A stretch of DNA of 64,000 bases from contig JAAXZN010000054.1 of assembly GCA_012719855.1 (NCBI GenBank), positions 1 through 64,000 of the forward strand, given 5' to 3'. Positions 46,277 through 63,138 of this stretch are shown here, piece by piece (the stretch's first letter is position 1; each line of letters begins with the position of its first letter). The DNA comes from Serratia liquefaciens (lineage in GTDB: Bacteria; Pseudomonadota; Gammaproteobacteria; Enterobacterales; Enterobacteriaceae). The position numbers were made by a program, and so were the translations under genes. Under the pieces are notes generated by a model that did not search any database, was not told the DNA's origin, and saw only the letters and a program-made list of their open reading frames with translations.

Positions 46277-47338
46277 TCAAATAACCTGCATAAGTGCTTT
46301 CATGTATCCCATCGCATAGGCCATACCCGAGTGCCATGGCGCCTCACAGCTCATCTGCGGCGAATGATCGGGGATCAGAACACCGTCAAATTTGCACTCT
46401 TTTAGCACTCGCAACACCTTCGGCATGTCTATGTCGCCTTCATCGATAAAGGTTTCATGGTAGTACGGCACTTTGCCCTTCACATTGCGAAAGTGGATAT
46501 AGGCAATGGCATCCTGCTGTGCATACTGCTCCACCGCCTGGTAAACATCCCCCTCTGACATTTCGGCGATAGTGCCAAGGCAGAATTCCAGGGCATTGGC
46601 GCAGCTGGGTTGCAAATCCAGCAGTTTTTGATACAAATGCGGTTGATTGACCAACCGTGGCTGACCTCGTACAAACTCGAGCGGCGGATCATCCGGATGC
46701 GCTGCCAGCCTGACGCCAGCCTCTTCCGCTACCGGGATAATCTGCGCCAGGAACCACTCAAGACGCTGCCAAAGCTGCTCTGTCGTCGTCACCTCTCTCA
46801 ACCCCGTAGCCTCTTCATCCACCACCATATTCCACGCCATGCTGGCCGGTAGCGGGCTTTCTGTTTGCTCATTGGCCCCGTTCAGCCCAACGGTTTTTGC
46901 TCCGCCCCGCGCTTTATTTTCCTCTATTCGACCGGCGACGCCGGCCAGGCTGAAGTTATAGCCAAAAACGGGAATACCCGCGGCGCCCACGTTGCGAATA
47001 ATTTGTTTAACCGTTTCTATCTGCTGAGTTTTTTTGGGGCCATCAAACAGAATGTCGTCCCAATGGCAGGGATCGAAGTTTTCGATGGCAAAAAATGTCA
47101 GGCCGAATTTCTCCATCCGGGCACGAATGTCGAGCAGCTCTTCCGTGCTCCAGATCTCCGCCTGTGCCGTTCCCCACCCTTGAGTATCGCCCACGGGCTG
47201 ATTCGAACGAGAAAAGCGATCGTTTCGATGAAAATAATCCACCATGTGCACCACGATATGCGTCGCACCGCACTGGCGAGCAAAGGCAAAGTGCTCATCA
47301 TCCAGCATATGCTTGTACAGACCGAAACCCAGTTTCAT
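46277..47338 (-). CDS. Mannonate dehydratase-like protein (UxuA family)
   Basis: UxuA-type enzymes dehydrate D-mannonate to 2-keto-3-deoxygluconate in hexuronate breakdown. This TIM-barrel protein of 353 residues has family features: FGLYKHMLDDEHFAFARQCG, FFAIENFDP, RLAAHPDDPP (about 222, metal His) and YIHFRNVKGK (about 303). Also present are TFIDEGDID and VLIPDHSP, which hold further metal ligands. The size is nearer the shorter UxuA forms than the 394-residue E. coli enzyme. No uxuB, uxaC or transporter adjoins it, so it may act on another sugar acid. GTG at 47341 is an alternative start. Confidence 0.83.
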   Translation of the reverse strand: MKLGFGLYKHMLDDEHFAFARQCGATHIVVHMVDYFHRNDRFSRSNQPVGDTQGWGTAQAEIWSTEELLDIRARMEKFGLTFFAIENFDPCHWDDILFDGPKKTQQIETVKQIIRNVGAAGIPVFGYNFSLAGVAGRIEENKARGGAKTVGLNGANEQTESPLPASMAWNMVVDEEATGLREVTTTEQLWQRLEWFLAQIIPVAEEAGVRLAAHPDDPPLEFVRGQPRLVNQPHLYQKLLDLQPSCANALEFCLGTIAEMSEGDVYQAVEQYAQQDAIAYIHFRNVKGKVPYYHETFIDEGDIDMPKVLRVLKECKFDGVLIPDHSPQMSCEAPWHSGMAYAMGYMKALMQVI

Positions 47339-56085: not shown

Positions 56086-56114
56086 TGGTGATTAATCGAT
56101 TAACCTCCTATACT
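56086..56114 (+). promoter_or_regulatory. Promoter of the cupin operon with LacI-type operator in its spacer
   Basis: TATACT (56109-56114) is a good -10, and TGGTGA (56086-56091) 17 bases upstream a weak -35. The perfect palindrome TTAATCGATTAA (56092-56103) lies exactly in the spacer. The same core occurs twice near the lacI-type gene at 62.1 kb. Confidence 0.75.
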
Positions 56115-56150
56115 CGAAGCGTCTGTTCTCCTCGGGCGGAGCAACCAGAT

Positions 56151-56714
56151 ATGAAACTGACGTCCATGATCCCACCGCAGGTCAACCTGGCGGACGGATG
56201 CTTTACCGCACCTGATATCCAACGCAAATCCACGACGCTGGGCAGCCTGGCGGGGATCTTTGCCGATCCCGTGGCCTGGCAAAGCTTGCCGGCGGAGCTT
56301 GCCGTCTATCAGGTAGAAATGTTGCCTTCCGTGCAGCAGGAAGGCGAACTGTTTGTCGGCACCACTCATCTGCAACCCGGTCGGGTGGGCGACGAATTCT
56401 TTATGACCCGCGGGCATTTTCACCAGCGGCCAGAACAGGCTGAGTTCTATTTTGGCCTACGGGGCCAGGGCTTGCTGTTGCTGCAACACCAGGACGGCGC
56501 TTGTTCGCTGGAACAGGTTTCCCCCGGTAGCGTTCACCATATCCCCTCCTTTACCGCACACCGTTTGATCAACACCGGTAATGACGTGCTCTCTGCGCTG
56601 GCGGTCTGGCCAACGGTCGCCGGCCACAACTACGATGCATTGCAGCCTCAGGGATTCAAGCTGCGGGTCTTTGCCGACGGCGAAGGTTGGAAGGCGGAGG
56701 CGCAGTATGAGTGA
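56151..56714 (+). CDS. Cupin-type phosphoglucose isomerase family protein (first of a pair)
   Basis: Archaeal-type cupin GPIs interconvert glucose 6-phosphate and fructose 6-phosphate with a metal ion. This 187-residue protein has FFMTRGHFHQRPEQAEFYFGLRG (about 82-104), where HxH and the later Glu match the metal ligands, and SVHHIPSFTAHRLINTG, carrying a further His. The start at 56151 follows CGGAG at 10 bases. The last 8 bases overlap the next gene (ATGAGTGA), so the two are translationally coupled. Being an extra isomerase in a sugar PTS regulon, it may act on an uncommon hexose phosphate. Confidence 0.8.
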   Translation: MKLTSMIPPQVNLADGCFTAPDIQRKSTTLGSLAGIFADPVAWQSLPAELAVYQVEMLPSVQQEGELFVGTTHLQPGRVGDEFFMTRGHFHQRPEQAEFYFGLRGQGLLLLQHQDGACSLEQVSPGSVHHIPSFTAHRLINTGNDVLSALAVWPTVAGHNYDALQPQGFKLRVFADGEGWKAEAQYE

Positions 56715-57489
56715 CTCGATGCTGCGATTTGGGCTTGATGTCCGCATTAGCGACAGCCCGATGGGGTTCGGCTATGGCGATGACGTCATTGGCCCTTTGC
56801 CGGAGATCCGCACGCTGGAGCAAATCCGCCGCTCCCTGCGCGATCCTGACTGCCACGGACCAGAGCAGGTGTATGCCATCGCGATGGACGTCGCCAAACA
56901 GCAACATTTGGCCGAATTGAAGAAGCGCATGTTGCTGTTCGGCATTGTCACCTATGCCAAAGGTCAGTTGGGTCAGGAGCCGATACGCAGCCAGGGACAC
57001 GTGCACCGTATCAGCGCGCACAGCGGTTGGTCACCACCGGAGCTGTATGAAATCTGGCAGGGAAAGGCGATCATTTACATGCAGGAACGGGTGGAATATG
57101 AACCGGGCCGCTGCTTCGCCGTCCATGCCGGGCCCGGCGAGAAGGTGCTGGTGCCGCCGGGCTGGGCCCACGCCACGATTTCTGCCGACCCTCACCAGCC
57201 GCTGACCTTCGCTGCCTGGTGCGATCGTGAATATGGCTTTGAATACGATGCCGTGCGTGAATACAAAGGACTGGCGTGGTACCCGCTGTTGCAGGGCGAC
57301 AATATTATCTGGCAACAGAACCCGCGTTATCAATCCGGCCGGCTGCACGCCATCGGCCCACGCCAATACCATGAATTCGGTCTGAGTGATGCCCCGTTAT
57401 ACTCGCAGTTTGAGGCCGATCCGGCGCGCTTCCAGTTCATTTCCAAACCGGGCAGCGTAGCGGAAAAATGGCAGCGGTTTGAGCCATAA
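56707..57489 (+). CDS. Cupin-type sugar-phosphate isomerase family protein (second of a pair)
   Basis: This 260-residue protein is of the same broad GPI-cupin type as its upstream partner but is clearly divergent. Metal-ligand candidates are in QGHVHRISAHSGWSPPELYE (about 96-115) and the later PPGWAHATI. The C-terminal ~75 residues (YHEFGLSDAPLYSQFEADPA and nearby) add a tail absent in its partner. It overlaps the upstream gene by 8 bases. Two adjacent different cupins could form a hetero-oligomer or catalyse successive isomerisations. It ends before a strong terminator. Confidence 0.75.
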   Translation: MSDSMLRFGLDVRISDSPMGFGYGDDVIGPLPEIRTLEQIRRSLRDPDCHGPEQVYAIAMDVAKQQHLAELKKRMLLFGIVTYAKGQLGQEPIRSQGHVHRISAHSGWSPPELYEIWQGKAIIYMQERVEYEPGRCFAVHAGPGEKVLVPPGWAHATISADPHQPLTFAAWCDREYGFEYDAVREYKGLAWYPLLQGDNIIWQQNPRYQSGRLHAIGPRQYHEFGLSDAPLYSQFEADPARFQFISKPGSVAEKWQRFEP

Positions 57490-57492
57490 CAA

Positions 57493-57528
57493 AAGCGGGG
57501 GCGAATACAGGTACATTCGCCCCCGCTT
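57493..57528. terminator. Bidirectional terminator between the cupin and PTS operons
   Basis: AAGCGGGGGCGAAT and ATTCGCCCCCGCTT form a perfect 14-bp stem with an 8-nt loop between convergent genes. T-rich sequence is modest (TTCTCTATTC on the right). It separates the two halves of the same regulon. Confidence 0.88.
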
Positions 57529-57545
57529 CTCTATTCAACGACAGA

Positions 57546-58367
57546 TTAAGAGAACAAACCGCAGGCCACCCCTGCCGCCGCCAGGGCCAGCAGCCCCAAC
57601 ATCGCTTTCACCGGTGACAACCCCCGCTTGGCCATCAGGTACCAGGTCATCAGCACCACGATCAGCGGCATCAGGTTAGGGAAAATGCCGTCCAGCATTT
57701 GCTGCAGGTGAATATTCACCCCGTCTTTGGTGACGAACTCCAGGCCGGTGCCCAGCTTGACGTAGCTCGCGGCTACGCCGCCCATAACGAACACTCCCAG
57801 CAGGGAAAGCGCTTCCCGCAGACGTGAGGACTTGCTGCTGACCAGCATTTCCACCGAGCCGGAGCCCATATGGTAGCCCTTCATAAACAGCCAGTAAGAG
57901 CCGGGAATGACGATCAGGCTGAACGCCATAATATAGAATAACGGGCCAATCACGCTGCCGCCGGCTGCCAGCGCCATACCGATGCTCAACAAAATGGGCA
58001 ACAGCATGCCCGGCACCATGGAGTCGCCGATACCCGCCACCGGCCCCATCAGGCCGACCTTGAGCGTATTGATGGTTTCACCGTCGATCGGCTCACCGTT
58101 GGCACGTTTTTCCTCCAGCCCGATCACCATGCCGTTAACAATCGCGCCCAGCTGCGGCTCGGTGTTATAGAACGAGGTGTGGCGGCGAATGGCCTCAATG
58201 CGCTGTTGTTTTTCCGGATACAGCTTTTTCAGCGCCGGCATCATGCTCAGGCAAAAACCGTAAGATTCCAGACGTTCAAAGCTCATCGATGACAGGTTGT
58301 ACATCATCCAGCTGCGCCAGCAACGACGCAGGTCCTGCTTATTCAATTTTGGTGTTGGCGTATCCAT
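57546..58367 (-). CDS. PTS mannose/sorbose-family EIID
   Basis: This integral membrane partner of EIIC has 273 residues and is unique to the mannose PTS family. Family marks are LRRCWRSWMMYNLSSMSFER at the N-terminus, FYNTEPQLGAIVNGMVIGLEE and LMGPVAGIGDSMVPGMLLPI. The C-terminus is hydrophobic. It shares one base with the EIIC gene (TGATG). It is the last gene of the manA-like-IIA-IIB-IIC-IID operon. Confidence 0.94.
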   Translation of the reverse strand: MDTPTPKLNKQDLRRCWRSWMMYNLSSMSFERLESYGFCLSMMPALKKLYPEKQQRIEAIRRHTSFYNTEPQLGAIVNGMVIGLEEKRANGEPIDGETINTLKVGLMGPVAGIGDSMVPGMLLPILLSIGMALAAGGSVIGPLFYIMAFSLIVIPGSYWLFMKGYHMGSGSVEMLVSSKSSRLREALSLLGVFVMGGVAASYVKLGTGLEFVTKDGVNIHLQQMLDGIFPNLMPLIVVLMTWYLMAKRGLSPVKAMLGLLALAAAGVACGLFS

Positions 58368-59167
58368 CAGAATTCATCCTCATCGTCAGCCTGAGGCGCG
58401 GCCTGTGCGGCAGCCACCTGCGGCTCTGGCTTATAGTTGTAGTGAATCAATGCCAGCAGCGCGCCGACAATCACCAGCGCCACCATATTCAGCTTGAGGA
58501 AAACAATGCAGATGAACCCCACCAGGAAGTAAATCAGCATGCTGTAGCTTTTGATAATCTGCTTAAGAAGAATGGCGATACCGACCGCAGGCAGAATGCC
58601 GCCGACCACGTTCATGGTAGTCAGCACCAGCGTCGGCAAGCTGTCCATAAAGGCGTTGATATAGCGCGCCCCGAAAAAGACGGCGATAAACGTCGGCACA
58701 AAGCGCAGCAGGAAGTTGGTGACCTGCGGCCAGATGGCGCTGTTGAGGTAAATGCCCTGTTCATCCCCGCGTTCCACCGCCAGATCCGCACGGTGGTTCC
58801 AGTAGGAATTGAGTACCATCATGGCATTGAACAGCACGGTGCCCATGATGCCGATAGTTGCCGCCAGGGCGACGGCCACCTCGGGCCCTTTACCGGAAAG
58901 AATGCCCAGCGCAATCGCCGGGAAGGCCACAAAGTTGAGGTCGGCCGGCATCGATCCGCCCGGTGTCACCATGGCGATATAAACCGCCTGTACCGCCACA
59001 CCGATGATGATGCCGGTCTGTACATCGCCGAGGATAGCCCCCACCAGCATGCCGGAGACCAGCGGACGGCTGAGAATATACCAGCCTCCGGTCAGTCCCA
59101 GCAGCCAGGGGCTGCTCAGCGCGCCGAGATAGCAAAGTATCCCGATAAGCGTCGCTTCAAACCACAT
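58367..59167 (-). CDS. PTS mannose/sorbose-family EIIC
   Basis: This membrane channel subunit of 266 residues has the family motifs LVSGMLVGAILGDVQTGIIIG and VTPGGSMPADLNFVAFPAIA, then several helices. The C-terminal tail after about residue 245 is Ala/Gln-rich and acidic (ends DDEDEF), cytoplasmic. It lies 22 bases after the EIIB gene. Confidence 0.93.
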   Translation of the reverse strand: MWFEATLIGILCYLGALSSPWLLGLTGGWYILSRPLVSGMLVGAILGDVQTGIIIGVAVQAVYIAMVTPGGSMPADLNFVAFPAIALGILSGKGPEVAVALAATIGIMGTVLFNAMMVLNSYWNHRADLAVERGDEQGIYLNSAIWPQVTNFLLRFVPTFIAVFFGARYINAFMDSLPTLVLTTMNVVGGILPAVGIAILLKQIIKSYSMLIYFLVGFICIVFLKLNMVALVIVGALLALIHYNYKPEPQVAAAQAAPQADDEDEF

Positions 59168-59189
59168 AGTTCACTCCTGCCGTTCAGGC

Positions 59190-59684
59190 TTATTTGAGTT
59201 TCTTTTTTGCGTCCAGCCAACTGAAATGGCTGGCATCCGGGACTAAACGGAATTCGATGGCATGGCCGTGTTCGGTCAGAAAATCGAAGGCTTCCGACTC
59301 TGTCACAGTCACGGATTGATTCGGGCCGATAGTCACCGTGTCCTTGCGGGCAGACATAGGGCCGACGTTGATTTTCTTGTTGCGATTGCTGAGATCGATC
59401 CCTGCCTCCATCAGTCGGCGCAGCGTGACCGGCGATTTGCCAATCACGAAGTACTGCTTGTCGCTGGCGATCACCTTCGGCAATTTTTCTATCGCCTGCT
59501 GTACGGTGAACAGCCATACCTTGGTGTCCTGCACCGCCCCTTTCATCACCGATGACAACAGCGGATCTGCCGCGACCTCATCATCAATCGCCACGATGCC
59601 ATCGCAGGGCAGCTCTTTCGCCCAGCGGGTCACCAGTTGACCGTGAATGACCCGGTCGTCGATACGTACGAATGAAATAGCCAT
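59190..59684 (-). CDS. PTS mannose/sorbose-family EIIB
   Basis: This soluble phosphocarrier of 164 residues starts AISFVRIDDRVIHGQLVTRW, where His14 is the expected phosphorylation site. It then shows the family order KGAVQDTKVWLFTVQQA. In this operon EIIA and EIIB are separate proteins, whereas E. coli ManX fuses them, so it is nearer the sorbose/agl type layout. The gap to the EIIA gene is 9 bases. Confidence 0.94.
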   Translation of the reverse strand: MAISFVRIDDRVIHGQLVTRWAKELPCDGIVAIDDEVAADPLLSSVMKGAVQDTKVWLFTVQQAIEKLPKVIASDKQYFVIGKSPVTLRRLMEAGIDLSNRNKKINVGPMSARKDTVTIGPNQSVTVTESEAFDFLTEHGHAIEFRLVPDASHFSWLDAKKKLK

Positions 59685-59693
59685 ACTCTCTCC

Positions 59694-60122
59694 TCAGAAA
59701 TCGTCCATTTGCGCCGTTGCCGCCGGACGGGCAAGCGCAATCGCCTCACCGCCCTGCGCCACCAGCTCCTGTGCCGCCAGTTGAACATCCTTTCCTTCCA
59801 GCAATTCGGCACTCATCAGCAACATCGGGAAATTCACGCCGGTCACCACCGCTATCGGCACTGGCGTATTGGGATCAAAGGCGTGACGGCAGGCCACGTT
59901 GTACGGCGTACCGCACAGCATGTCGCACAGCACCAACACGCCATCGGCCCCGTCGCTCACCCGGAGCAGTTCGTCAGCAAAATCCTGCTTGAAAGCCTCG
60001 ATACCGGCGCCTTCACTCAGACCGACATGGCTGGTCCCCGGCAACTCGCCGTAAACCATGTGCGCGCTGCTCAGTAACGCCTCGGCCAGCGGCCCATGAG
60101 AAGTCACAATCACTCTCAACAT
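59694..60122 (-). CDS. PTS mannose/sorbose-family EIIA
   Basis: This 142-residue EIIA domain protein begins LRVIVTSHGPLAEALLSSAHMVYG, with phosphorylatable His9. It then has VLVLCDMLCGTPYNVACR and VVTGVNFPMLLMSAELLEG, family segments. It starts 5 bases after the manA-like gene stops, so it is transcribed with it. Confidence 0.94.
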   Translation of the reverse strand: MLRVIVTSHGPLAEALLSSAHMVYGELPGTSHVGLSEGAGIEAFKQDFADELLRVSDGADGVLVLCDMLCGTPYNVACRHAFDPNTPVPIAVVTGVNFPMLLMSAELLEGKDVQLAAQELVAQGGEAIALARPAATAQMDDF

Positions 60123-60127
60123 AATGT

Positions 60128-61897
60128 TTATCCCCTTACCCAGGCTTTGATGGTGCCCAGGGTTTTACCCAGGCTGCGGCCATGAGGACTGATGCGATAC
60201 GCCCCTACCGCAGCCGGGACGATGAAGGTTTCCGCGTAATGCACCACGAAGGGAGCAAAATGGCCCTCAGGGCTTTCAACCACGGCCTCTTCCCCTTCCA
60301 CCAGGTTCAGCACGTTCACTCGTCCTTCGGTATGGTGCAACACCGGTTCACTGAACCAGTGACGGCGGGTTTCGATAAATTCGCGCTCGTGCAGGCCGGT
60401 TCGCTCTTCCTGCCAGCCTTGCCCTTCAGCAACCGTTTCAATCCGGTTGACCAGATGCTCCGTTGCCCAGTCGGTGTCGCATTGCCAGTTGATCACCTGC
60501 TCACCGTGCTGCAGATGCACCGGGCGCGGCAGGCCATCTAACCCCACACGGCCCCAGTCCCACAGTTTGAAGGTGAAAATGTACGGCGTAGCGCTGATCT
60601 CCAGCACCATGGTACCCGCACCTGAGCAGTGCACCGTTCCTGCCGGGATCAGGAAGTGGTCGTGTTTGCGCGCCGGGAAGCGGTTCACAAAACGGCGATC
60701 GTCGAACGCCTTTTCGCCTCTTTGGGCGGCGGCCAGATCGGTCATCATCGCCTGCGGATCGGTGCCGTTTTTCATCCCCAGATACACTTCGGCATCCTGC
60801 TCTGCCGCCAGAATGTAATAGCTTTCATCCTGGGTATAGTGCATACCGAAATGCTGTTGGATGTATTCCGTCAGCGGGTGCACCTGGAAGCTGAGGTTTT
60901 GCCCGCCGACGGTGTCCAGCAGGTCAAAACGGATCGGGAATTCGGCGCCGAAGCGTGCGTGCACCCGATCGCCCAGCAGGGGCCTAGGGTATAACAGCAC
61001 CAAATCTTGTGAGGGGATCTCGACCCGAACGTCACCAAAACGCATTAGCAGGCTGTTTTCCTCGGGCACGCAGTCAAAACACCACGCGTAGTTGGCTGCC
61101 GTCGGGTCGAGATCGAACTGTTGTTTCATCCATTGACCGCCCCAGATGCCGGGGTCAAAAAAGGGCACGACGCGGAACGGACGTTGGGTGACCTGCTGCA
61201 AACCAGCGTGGAATGCTTCACCGCTCACGGCCTTGGGCTTACCTGCCTGGTTGGTATCCAACACCAGGTCCGCACGCTGCAACAACGGGGTTTTATGGCG
61301 ATCGAACACCCGCCATTCCACAAAAAAGGCCCGCTTGTAACGACGCAACACGTCTTCGTCCACATTGGTTACGCCCCAGTTGCCCAGTTCGCCACGGCGA
61401 AAACGCTGCTGGATTTCCCAGCGAGCCATGTCGGCATACACCAGCACATCGCCCTCGGCGATCAACGCCGCACCGGGTCCGTAAATCACTACCAGGCCAC
61501 TTTCGACGCTCGCAATTTGATCGCGCAGCTGCTTCACGCGCTCATCATCAAAAAACTCAGGCAGTTGATGGCATGACAACACGCCAAAAACACGATCATC
61601 GGTTAAGTTGCGCTCAATCATCGCGTGAATATGCGATTCATCATGTTTGGCAAACTCGGCGTTAATACTGCTGGCTGGCTGCAGCGGATGGATAAAATTC
61701 TCGCTCAGCTCTGCCAAATTCACCCCAGGGTAGCAATCCACCACCAACAGGGTTTTGCGTAACCCGAGGGCGGCAACCTTGCGGCTGACAGCCTCGACCA
61801 CCGCCGGCCAACCTTGCCAGGCGGCATGATCAAAGCCCTGAACCGCCACTTCCGGGTGCTTGTCATAGCTCGTTGCGTTGCACTGTTGCTCTGTCAT
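60128..61897 (-). CDS. Class I mannose-6-phosphate isomerase-like protein with extra N-terminal domain
   Basis: The C-terminal ~380 residues are a type I ManA domain: GGQNLSFQVHPLTEYIQQHFG (about 335, metal ligands), YYILAAEQDAEVYLGM, LIPAGTVHCSGAGTMVLEIS (about 422), and the C-terminal cupin FAPFVVHYAETFIVPAAVGAY. The N-terminal ~200 residues (VEAVSRKVAALGLRKTLLVV and on) form a separate domain that recalls nucleotide/uridine-kinase-like folds but has no P-loop. Total 589 residues, against ~390 for E. coli ManA. It heads the PTS operon, so its substrate is probably the imported sugar phosphate. The ATG at 61897 is preferred over a GTG at 61915. Confidence 0.85.
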   Translation of the reverse strand: MTEQQCNATSYDKHPEVAVQGFDHAAWQGWPAVVEAVSRKVAALGLRKTLLVVDCYPGVNLAELSENFIHPLQPASSINAEFAKHDESHIHAMIERNLTDDRVFGVLSCHQLPEFFDDERVKQLRDQIASVESGLVVIYGPGAALIAEGDVLVYADMARWEIQQRFRRGELGNWGVTNVDEDVLRRYKRAFFVEWRVFDRHKTPLLQRADLVLDTNQAGKPKAVSGEAFHAGLQQVTQRPFRVVPFFDPGIWGGQWMKQQFDLDPTAANYAWCFDCVPEENSLLMRFGDVRVEIPSQDLVLLYPRPLLGDRVHARFGAEFPIRFDLLDTVGGQNLSFQVHPLTEYIQQHFGMHYTQDESYYILAAEQDAEVYLGMKNGTDPQAMMTDLAAAQRGEKAFDDRRFVNRFPARKHDHFLIPAGTVHCSGAGTMVLEISATPYIFTFKLWDWGRVGLDGLPRPVHLQHGEQVINWQCDTDWATEHLVNRIETVAEGQGWQEERTGLHEREFIETRRHWFSEPVLHHTEGRVNVLNLVEGEEAVVESPEGHFAPFVVHYAETFIVPAAVGAYRISPHGRSLGKTLGTIKAWVRG

Positions 61898-61930
61898 ATC
61901 CTTCTGCCTATGCACTGAATAGATAGAAAA

Positions 61931-61948
61931 AGATTAATCGATTAACCT
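61931..61948. promoter_or_regulatory. LacI-type operator upstream of the manA-like/PTS operon
   Basis: AGATTAATCGATTAACCT is an 18-bp near-perfect palindrome (one mismatched pair) around the core TTAATCGATTAA. It lies 34 bases before the manA-like start. It matches the cupin-operon operator, which is identical over ATTAATCGATTAACCT. Confidence 0.8.
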
Positions 61949-62019
61949 CAAGACAAACAGGCTGATTAACGAGATTAACTTCATATAACTGATAATAACC
62001 TGATGAAAACCCCATAAAT

Positions 62020-62035
62020 TGTGATGTTCATCACA
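62020..62035. promoter_or_regulatory. CRP site in the manA-like/lacI divergent region
   Basis: TGTGATGTTCATCACA is a perfect match to the CRP consensus TGTGA-N6-TCACA. Its centre lies about 58 bases before the probable lacI-type transcript start, near the class I position, so cAMP-CRP activation of the cluster is expected. Confidence 0.85.
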
Positions 62036-62050
62036 CTTTATTTAGCGAGA

Positions 62051-62081
62051 TTACACAGACAAAGGTTAATCGATATACCTT
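62051..62081 (+). promoter_or_regulatory. Promoter and operator of the lacI-type gene
   Basis: TTACAC (62051) and TATACC (62074) with a 17-base spacer form a weak sigma-70 promoter. AAGGTTAATCGATATACCTT (62062-62081) is a 20-bp palindrome with two mismatched pairs and overlaps the -10. It shares the core of the other two operators, implying autoregulation. Confidence 0.7.
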
Positions 62082-62112
62082 GATGCAAGAGCCAGTATCG
62101 ACAGGAGATAAA

Positions 62113-63138
62113 ATGAGCACCATAACCTTGGCGGATGTCGCCGCATACGCAAAAGTCTCCACCGCCACGGTTTCGATGGTATTGCGCAACCGTGGCCGTA
62201 TTTCGGATGAAACACGCAAGCGTGTACTGAGCGCCATCGATCATCTGGGCTACGTTTATAATCAGACTGCGGCAAACCTGCGCAATCGCAGCAGCAACCA
62301 GGTCGGCCTGCTGCTGCACGATATCACCAACCCCTTTTATGCCGAGATGACCGCCGGGCTGAGCCAGGAAATGGAGCGTCATCAACTGATGCTGTTTCTG
62401 GCCAACAGCGAAGAGTCGGCCGACAGGCAGCAAAAATTTGTCGACTCGCTGCTGCAAAACAGTGCCAGCGGCATGGTGCTGTGCGCCGCACGCCAGACGC
62501 CGAGCCTGTTTTTTGAAACGCTGAAACGCCGTAAGATCCCGGCCATCATGGTGGTCAGGCCGGTGGCCGATGCGCACTTTGACTTTGTCGGCACCGATAA
62601 CTTCCTCGGCACGCAGTTGGCAACCCAGCATCTGTTGGATCTCGGTCACCGCAATATCGCTTTCATCGGGGGCTCCATCAACTCCACCACCCGCGCGCAG
62701 CGATTGGGGGGTTACACCAGCAAACTGCTGGAACGGGGCATTATGGTCAAGGGAGAATGGATCGTGGACAGCGAAGCCAGCCAAAGCTCCGGCGCCAAGG
62801 CCGCGGAACAGTTGTTGATGGCCCGTCCGGAAATCACGGCGGCATTATGCTATCAGGACATTGTCGCGTTGGGCGTTATGCAGACATTACGCAAACTCGA
62901 CCGCCAGATTGGCCGTGATTTCGCGCTGATAGGGTTTGATGATATTACCGAAGCGTCATTGGTGCAGCCGGGTTTGACCACCGTATCGGTGGCCTCACGC
63001 GAGATCGGCCGCAAAGCGGGGGAACTGCTGTATAGCCGTATTCAGGGCAATGATGAACCGCCAAAACGCATCATCCTGCCGCCTTCGTTGGTGATCCGTC
63101 AATCCTGCGGCTTTGCCGATCAATCTACGCCGGCCTGA
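62113..63138 (+). CDS. LacI-family repressor of the sugar PTS/isomerase cluster
   Basis: The 341-residue protein has a LacI helix-turn-helix and hinge helix at the N-terminus (TLADVAAYAKVSTATVSMVL, then ISDETRKRVLSAIDHLGYVY and NQTAANLR) and a periplasmic-binding-like effector domain (VGLLLHDITNPFYAEMTAGL, FVGTDNFLGTQLATQHLLD, ALIGFDDITEASLVQPGLTT). The ATG at 62113 follows AGGAGA by 7 bases; an earlier in-frame ATG at 62080 lies on the operator. It is divergent from the manA-like/PTS operon. The three shared palindromes are its likely targets. Confidence 0.92.
   Translation: MSTITLADVAAYAKVSTATVSMVLRNRGRISDETRKRVLSAIDHLGYVYNQTAANLRNRSSNQVGLLLHDITNPFYAEMTAGLSQEMERHQLMLFLANSEESADRQQKFVDSLLQNSASGMVLCAARQTPSLFFETLKRRKIPAIMVVRPVADAHFDFVGTDNFLGTQLATQHLLDLGHRNIAFIGGSINSTTRAQRLGGYTSKLLERGIMVKGEWIVDSEASQSSGAKAAEQLLMARPEITAALCYQDIVALGVMQTLRKLDRQIGRDFALIGFDDITEASLVQPGLTTVSVASREIGRKAGELLYSRIQGNDEPPKRIILPPSLVIRQSCGFADQSTPA

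Follow-up and report, generated by a model that had tools for sequence, protein, structure and literature searches.

Mannose use by a phosphotransferase system (PTS) together with ManA is known from manP-manA of Bacillus subtilis, mngA-mngB constitutes the mannosylglycerate system of Escherichia coli, and the cupin-type phosphoglucose isomerases represented by the structures 1j3p and 2gc0 are archaeal. Here we describe, from Serratia liquefaciens, a compact gene set at positions 56086..63138 of a 64,000-nucleotide stretch of DNA (the window), part of a genome of 5.46 Mb, which we take with a probability of roughly 0.6 to be a local regulon, repressed by a LacI-type protein and probably activated by CRP, that would serve the uptake of mannose or a mannose-like hexose as a second, inducible path. 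As the initial annotation had stated, it encodes two cupins of family PF06560 (CupA and CupB), an EIIABCD set of the mannose PTS family, a ManA-like protein (ManX, a name local to this analysis) and a LacI-type regulator. The genes cupA-cupB lie on the plus strand and are convergent with manX-EIIA-EIIB-EIIC-EIID on the minus strand, and the lacI-type gene is divergent from manX. Among LacI-family regulators, the main text of PMC4052901 distinguishes for mannose and mannosides five groups of orthologues, named ManR; neither 'Serratia' nor 'isomerase' appears in that main text, supplements aside, and the regulon may already stand in RegPrecise. No description of the cluster was found in the literature searched, which did not extend to supplements.

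Judged by comparison between genomes, the regulon is conserved and, as a unit, almost certainly real. Its operators, gene content and CRP-like site are conserved across about 35 enterobacterial loci (L003-L036 and L041), and the nearest clusters among the matches listed are those of Serratia proteamaculans, S. quinivorans and S. grimesii, with ManX identities of 90-91%. Palindromes in front of three units had been noted initially; two of them, at 56092-56103 and 61934-61945, are indeed exact, and the third, at 62066-62077, has two mismatches. With up to two mismatches allowed, the palindrome has four matches in the 64 kb against 0.96 expected, the fourth of which, at 46439, lies outside the cluster, and in a genome-wide scan that counted exact copies only, near-matches not being included, TTAATCGATTAA occurs just twice in the 5.46 Mb, both times in the cluster. 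The extended operator consensus comprises 16 bp and reads GGTTAATCGATTAACC; palindromes with CG at the centre, close to the promoters of target genes, are typical operators of LacI-family repressors. Operator 1 (56090..56105, around the first of these cores) precedes cupA, and its core is exact in 27 of 33 cupA loci (the window, 31 adjacent and 1 relocated), with one mismatch in five and three mismatches in one. Operator 2 (61932..61947, around the second exact core), before manX-PTS, has one mismatch to the 16-mer in 35/35 loci, and operator 3 (62064..62079), which precedes the lacI-type gene and has two mismatches in the window, has one to three in all 35.

The co-occurrence of palindrome and cluster that the initial annotation implied is borne out in a family sample of 79 genomes, 29 of which are smaller than 3 Mb. 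All six genomes with a full-length ManX (at least 72% identity, the window's own genome included) have two exact palindromes, located 5.8-6.2 kb apart so as to bracket the manX stretch, with a third copy elsewhere in one of them, whereas two palindromes within 10 kb are found in none of the other 73 genomes (Fisher p 3.6e-9, kinship ignored). Single palindromes do occur apart from the cluster, since 20 of these 73 genomes carry one or more. Two members of the 73, one with a manX-like gene of 49% identity (G004) and one with a broken manX (G054), have no exact palindrome, and near-matches are present at both loci. In four of the 35 loci (L017, L018, L023 and L027) no cupins adjoin the PTS operon, and in one of these, Buttiauxella sp. 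B2 (L017), the cupin pair is found on a different contig, where an exact GGTTAATCGATTAACC directly precedes cupA. The proposal that one LacI-type repressor governs three units is thus well supported by conservation, the relocated cupins having kept their operator. Farther away, a Photobacterium locus combines a regulator 62% identical to that of the window with ManX and a fructose-type PTS, and three operator-like sites with 2-3 mismatches are found there between lacI and manX against 0.03 expected.

The divergent region furthermore contains the CRP-like site TGTGATGTTCATCACA at 62020..62035, which as claimed beforehand is a perfect TGTGA-N6-TCACA. Among 35 other loci the site is perfect in 22 and has one mismatch in six, two in six and three in one, and its position between the two divergent operators is nearly fixed. 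The spacing from operator 2 to operator 3 is 121-123 bp in 26 of 35 loci, 131-132 bp in eight and 112 bp in one, and these steps of nearly a helical turn may point to looping, or merely to common descent. In one locus (L029) extra genes are inserted between the promoter region with the two divergent sites and manX. As to the suggestion that operator 1 occupies the spacer between -35 and -10 elements, a TATACT is present at 56109-56114, but no promoter passes the scan and the -35 element (TGGTGA) is poor. The operator 1 core ends 20-21 nt ahead of a conserved motif in the cupA leader in 33/33 loci, and this constant distance fits a fixed position of the cupA promoter.

ManX (60128..61897, minus strand) is a protein of 589 amino acids for which no Pfam or NCBIfam family was found at E 0.001, and a search of the genome with PF20511 retrieved the ordinary ManA only and not ManX. 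Residues 236-463 are nevertheless related to class I mannose-6-phosphate isomerases, as exemplified by the solved enzyme 1qwr (E 1e-11). H340, E358 and H423, which align with His, Glu and His of the solved enzymes and which we take to be metal ligands, are invariant in 42 rows, and K444 is likewise invariant, with an Arg at the same place in 1qwr. Identity to ordinary ManA proteins is 26-33% and confined to partial stretches. The N-terminal part, before residue 236, has no recognised domain, yet many of its residues are invariant across phyla. An E. coli collection gave no blastn match to manX.

The substrate of ManX may be approached through its neighbours. A scan of genome contigs gave at least 588 ManX relatives, and the best 80 of these at least 588 were used; they included 45 distant loci, in 42 of which a manX gene was called, with stretches of up to 10 kb on each side. 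The neighbours in the 42 loci include ROK kinases (27), MFS sugar porters (18) and glycoside hydrolases of families GH38 (9), GH92 (8) and GH2 (3), so that a gene of one of these three hydrolase families is present in 20/42, one representative per mannosidase cluster having been verified by Pfam. A Parabacteroides locus, for example, has the order manX-ROK-GH92-MFS-GH38. Of 82 same-strand genes near distant manX that had no assignment, 54 were tallied by Pfam, and the 25 families listed out of 81 include no mannosidase family. Nearer to the window, two loci (L126 and L128) encode ManX, an MngB-like GH38, a PTS of glucose type and a LacI-type protein that shares 56 and 69% identity, respectively, with that of the window, and they also carry near-operators. 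This arrangement of hydrolase and PTS beside the LacI, operator and ManX core should yield mannose-6-phosphate. Owing to the mannosidase, kinase and MngB-like GH38 neighbours, mannose-6-phosphate would be the most economical substrate of ManX, and mannose or a mannose-like hexose that of the PTS.

From these features we infer the following course of events. The repressor would bind GGTTAATCGATTAACC ahead of its own gene and of the cupAB and manX-PTS units and would be released in the presence of the sugar or of its phosphate, and CRP would activate by way of the CRP-like site. The mannose-family PTS would then import the sugar as its 6-phosphate, ManX would convert this into fructose-6-phosphate, CupA would link fructose-6-phosphate and glucose-6-phosphate, and CupB would perform a related metal-dependent isomerisation. 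The regulator (62113..63138, plus strand, 341 amino acids) is made up of a LacI helix-turn-helix and a periplasmic-binding-protein-like sensor, with PF00356, PF00532 and PF13377 above cut-off in Pfam, and is likewise recognised by NCBIfam. The PTS subunits, assigned by Pfam and NCBIfam, are all encoded on the minus strand and correspond to EIIA (PF03610, 59694..60122), EIIB (PF03830, 59190..59684), EIIC (PF03609, 58367..59167) and EIID (PF03613, 57546..58367) of the mannose/fructose/sorbose family, and since every NCBIfam score falls under its cut-off no named subfamily is assigned. Short stretches of high synonymous conservation were observed in EIIC (from codon 229) and EIID (from codon 175), within 57546-59167.

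Several points weigh against this reading. The specificity of ManX is not readable from its sequence, since it is far from ordinary ManA, and the mannosidase counts cover the surroundings of manX only. The relatives need not use mannosylglycerate, since the GH38 proteins of L126 and L128 score 631 and 620 bits with the mannosylglycerate hydrolase model (cut-off 1138), and the Photobacterium PTS, although it scores best with the mannosylglycerate PTS model, reaches 424.6 against a cut-off of 763. In addition, one ordinary Pgi and one ordinary ManA are encoded in the same genome, so that a second set for plain mannose would be redundant, and CupB, or the AGE-type epimerase found in other lineages, has no obvious place in plain mannose catabolism.

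The cupAB and manX-PTS units of the proposed regulon also share a possible connection at the RNA level. The cupA 5' leader carries the motif GTTCTCCTYGGGC, followed by the ribosome site (56125..56141, plus strand), in 33/33 enterobacterial cupA loci, with 13 invariant nucleotides just ahead of the cupA ribosome site. In its strict form the motif is found once in five of the six ManX genomes and in 0/73 others. Single-sequence folds of the leader pair the ribosome site in a manner that varies by lineage, and RNAalifold predicts from the leader alignment a weak structure of four pairs without covariation. No comparable conserved block is present in the manX leader in the 17 loci looked at. The reverse complement of the leader motif falls at the manX codons for VPEENS, within a predicted hairpin in the coding sequence (61017..61113, minus strand, codons about 262-295; leader-complementary segment 61052-61067). 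These codons read GTG CCC GAG GAR AAY AGC in 33/33 manX genes from leader-bearing genomes and in four added loci (six new ones less two duplicates), and GTG CCC GAG is found in none of ten related gammaproteobacterial loci without the leader motif (L018, L023, L027, L084, L113, L114 and L125-L128; its absence refers to the locus, and in L113 and L114 to the genome as well) and in 0/40 distant loci. It is present in one Parabacteroides locus (L086).

The predicted manX hairpin is likely to be real. The top eight of 56 windows of four invariant codons fall in codons 273-283, where synonymous constraint within the gene is strongest, and the consensus fold predicted from the 37 leader-bearing sequences has 30 pairs, with 98.6% of cells paired. 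Both partners have changed in 38 cells of this fold, where shuffles give 10.3, and its covariation score exceeds that of all 500 shuffles. The counts of covarying pairs (3) and of pair types (19), on the other hand, are equalled or exceeded by 439/500 and 288/500 shuffles. In the ten leader-less sequences the proportion of paired hairpin cells is 73.0%, and the lower stem is by eye still complete in L125. The folding energy is below the mean of 100 synonymous shuffles in 37/37 sequences, with a median z of -1.82 (range -3.95 to -0.71; window -2.56) and 0/100 shuffles as low in 12 of them, and z spans -2.06 to +1.32 in nine of the ten loci without the leader (L114 not included). The hairpin region furthermore has the highest structure-conservation index among 55 manX stretches (0.63 against a median of 0.12), a value owed partly to the strong sequence conservation there. 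Codon invariance as such is also found outside manX, since synonymous conservation in the EIIC and EIID windows mentioned above reaches 0.41 and 0.45 against 0.46 in manX. An Rfam match to STnc320 at 57479-57536, at 25.2 bits against a threshold of 50, was taken to be due to chance.

As regards the function of this hairpin, we lean towards a role in cis only, for example in the speed of translation at the border of the N-terminal part and the isomerase part or in the stability of the operon message, with the match to the leader being a coincidence. When the 22-nt leader core is paired against all of manX, the best duplex lies at the site in 33/37 loci, but at most 1/60 synonymous shuffles are as strong in only 15/37 (26/60 in the window). 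When complementarity is counted without gaps, the site comes first in 34/37, with 14-16 matches in 16 (G-U allowed), and depending on the locus 0 to 125 of 200 synonymous shuffles reach the same count (58/200 in the window). Moreover, a manX site at codon 252 pairs with the leader nearly as well, and 12/13 letters match the motif complement in 7/42 distant ManX homologues without the leader. Pairing between leader and manX is therefore not a firm result, the shuffle tests supporting it weakly. A purely cis-acting hairpin is less readily reconciled with the fact that GTG CCC GAG is found in 37/37 leader-bearing against 0/10 leader-less gammaproteobacterial loci, although this link follows phylogeny and few events may lie behind it. 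That RNA of the manX coding sequence might pair in trans with the cupA 5' end and free the cupA ribosome site by displacing the arm that covers it, thereby coupling the two units, we regard as unlikely; if hairpin and leader did interact, this would be an unusual means of balancing the enzymes of one pathway. A conserved RNA structure inside a sugar-catabolic coding sequence, the occurrence of which is tied to the invariant leader of another operon in the same regulon, is of interest.

The initial annotation had proposed an uncommon hexose as the substrate, and in its fuller form this explanation holds that the PTS imports an uncommon aldohexose, the 6-phosphate of which is converted by CupB, CupA and ManX in two or three steps to fructose-6-phosphate. 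A full second set next to ordinary ManA and Pgi does suggest another substrate, and CupB may be seen in the same light. CupA (56151..56714, plus strand, 187 amino acids) looks by its family and metal residues like a cupin-type glucose-6-phosphate isomerase, aligning over most of its length with structures of cupin phosphoglucose isomerases (E down to 9.7e-35); its HxH, Glu and His metal residues are invariant in 51/51 rows and the His of the AGHDY motif is kept in 98%. CupB (56707..57489, plus strand, 260 amino acids) is a diverged PF06560 cupin in which HxH, E and H are invariant in 49/49 rows (at least one of them a duplicate) but in which a Phe takes the place of the AGHDY His in 94% of rows, so that it keeps the metal residues without the His conserved in CupA, and we class CupB no further than as a PF06560 relative. 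It is 52-60% identical in ten distinct distant loci displayed, three further rows of cupins adjoining ptsG-type genes being only 24-26% identical.

However, CupB has no match anywhere in the genomes of three Mixta and Pantoea strains (L018, L023 and L027) in which repressor, ManX and PTS are present, and neither cupin was found in the L084, L126 and L128 loci, which makes at least CupB dispensable for the core path. In an order sample of 394 genomes full-length ManX is found in 12, and CupB accompanies it in all eight of the window's family and in none of the four outside it (L125-L128). Two of these four (L125 and L127) hold a LacI-type gene, ManX, a mannose-family EIIABCD, an AGE-family epimerase and CupA without CupB. 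The AGE epimerase and CupB never occur together in the loci examined and may do comparable jobs. The cupin pair can also be a module of its own, since a Parabacteroides record has CupA-ROK-CupB-MFS beside a GH2 gene and one resembling a cellulase, and ManX is absent from the 25 kb viewed there but carried on a separate record of the same strain. The uncommon hexose is not supported, as ManX relatives adjoin mannosidases and sugar kinases across phyla and the core adjoins an MngB-like GH38 in two genomes; we consider it possible but rather doubtful. Of the accompanying idea, the delivery of a glycolytic intermediate by isomerases without kinase or aldolase is favored by conservation, and the postulated chain of isomerisations is unproven in view of the CupB-less genomes. 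That the regulator is MalI and the cluster part of the maltose regulon is highly improbable, since the exact operators are confined to this cluster and the adjoining genes are not malX and malY (which were not searched genome-wide), but its score of 316.3 bits with the MalI subfamily model, above the NCBIfam cut-off of 310, may lead automatic annotation to misname it.

The surroundings of the cluster, and a few loci seen alongside it, should also be mentioned. In seven Serratia loci and one of Chimaeribacter (L003-L009 and L035) the cluster is flanked by the same gene types as in the window (PF03738 and PF02900, presumably ygiC and ygiD), and such flanks are absent from the remaining enterobacterial loci compared. 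An operon on a Salmonella plasmid (L095, 5171-8906) comprises a ptsG-type EIIBC, a PF06560-like cupin 24.5% identical to CupB, hxlB and hxlA, and possibly joins a PTS to enzymes of ribulose-monophosphate type; similar cupins occur on a further four plasmid records from Salmonella and on one record from E. coli. L113 (3311-14774) holds a divergent paralogous cluster with a LacI-type gene, a mannose-family PTS, an MtlD-like dehydrogenase and near-operators, together with a ManX-like protein (48-49%), an AGE epimerase and a zinc alcohol dehydrogenase-like protein of 553 amino acids. It is resembled, in combining ManX with AGE and alcohol dehydrogenase, by a Deinococcus plasmid (L085, 3581-14994), which encodes ManX, an AGE epimerase, a ROK kinase and an ABC transporter, with an alcohol dehydrogenase and an FGGY kinase on the opposite strand. 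In L114 (8301-13621) ManX and the LacI-type gene are interrupted and the PTS genes are 81-94% identical to others, so that it is apparently a decaying copy of the system.

The proposed mannose regulon would supply a function open to testing for an isomerase-like protein that is widespread and missed by Pfam and NCBIfam, along with a ready-made repressor and operator reporter. Like other LacI-family sugar regulons, the ManR groups treated in the main text of PMC4052901 among them, it would consist of sugar genes under a local repressor with palindromic sites. Like manP-manA of B. subtilis, it places PTS import side by side with a relative of class I mannose-6-phosphate isomerase, but it differs in its mannose-family EIIABCD, its isomerase relative of 589 residues, its two cupins and its LacI-type repressor. 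The likeness to mngA-mngB of E. coli lies in those relatives of the cluster that pair the repressor and ManX core with a PTS and an MngB-like GH38, whereas the window has no such hydrolase and the model scores of the relatives are below cut-off. Finally, CupA aligns with 1j3p, 2gc0 and other cupin phosphoglucose isomerases and keeps their metal residues, but unlike these it would be a regulated second enzyme in a genome that also has an ordinary Pgi.

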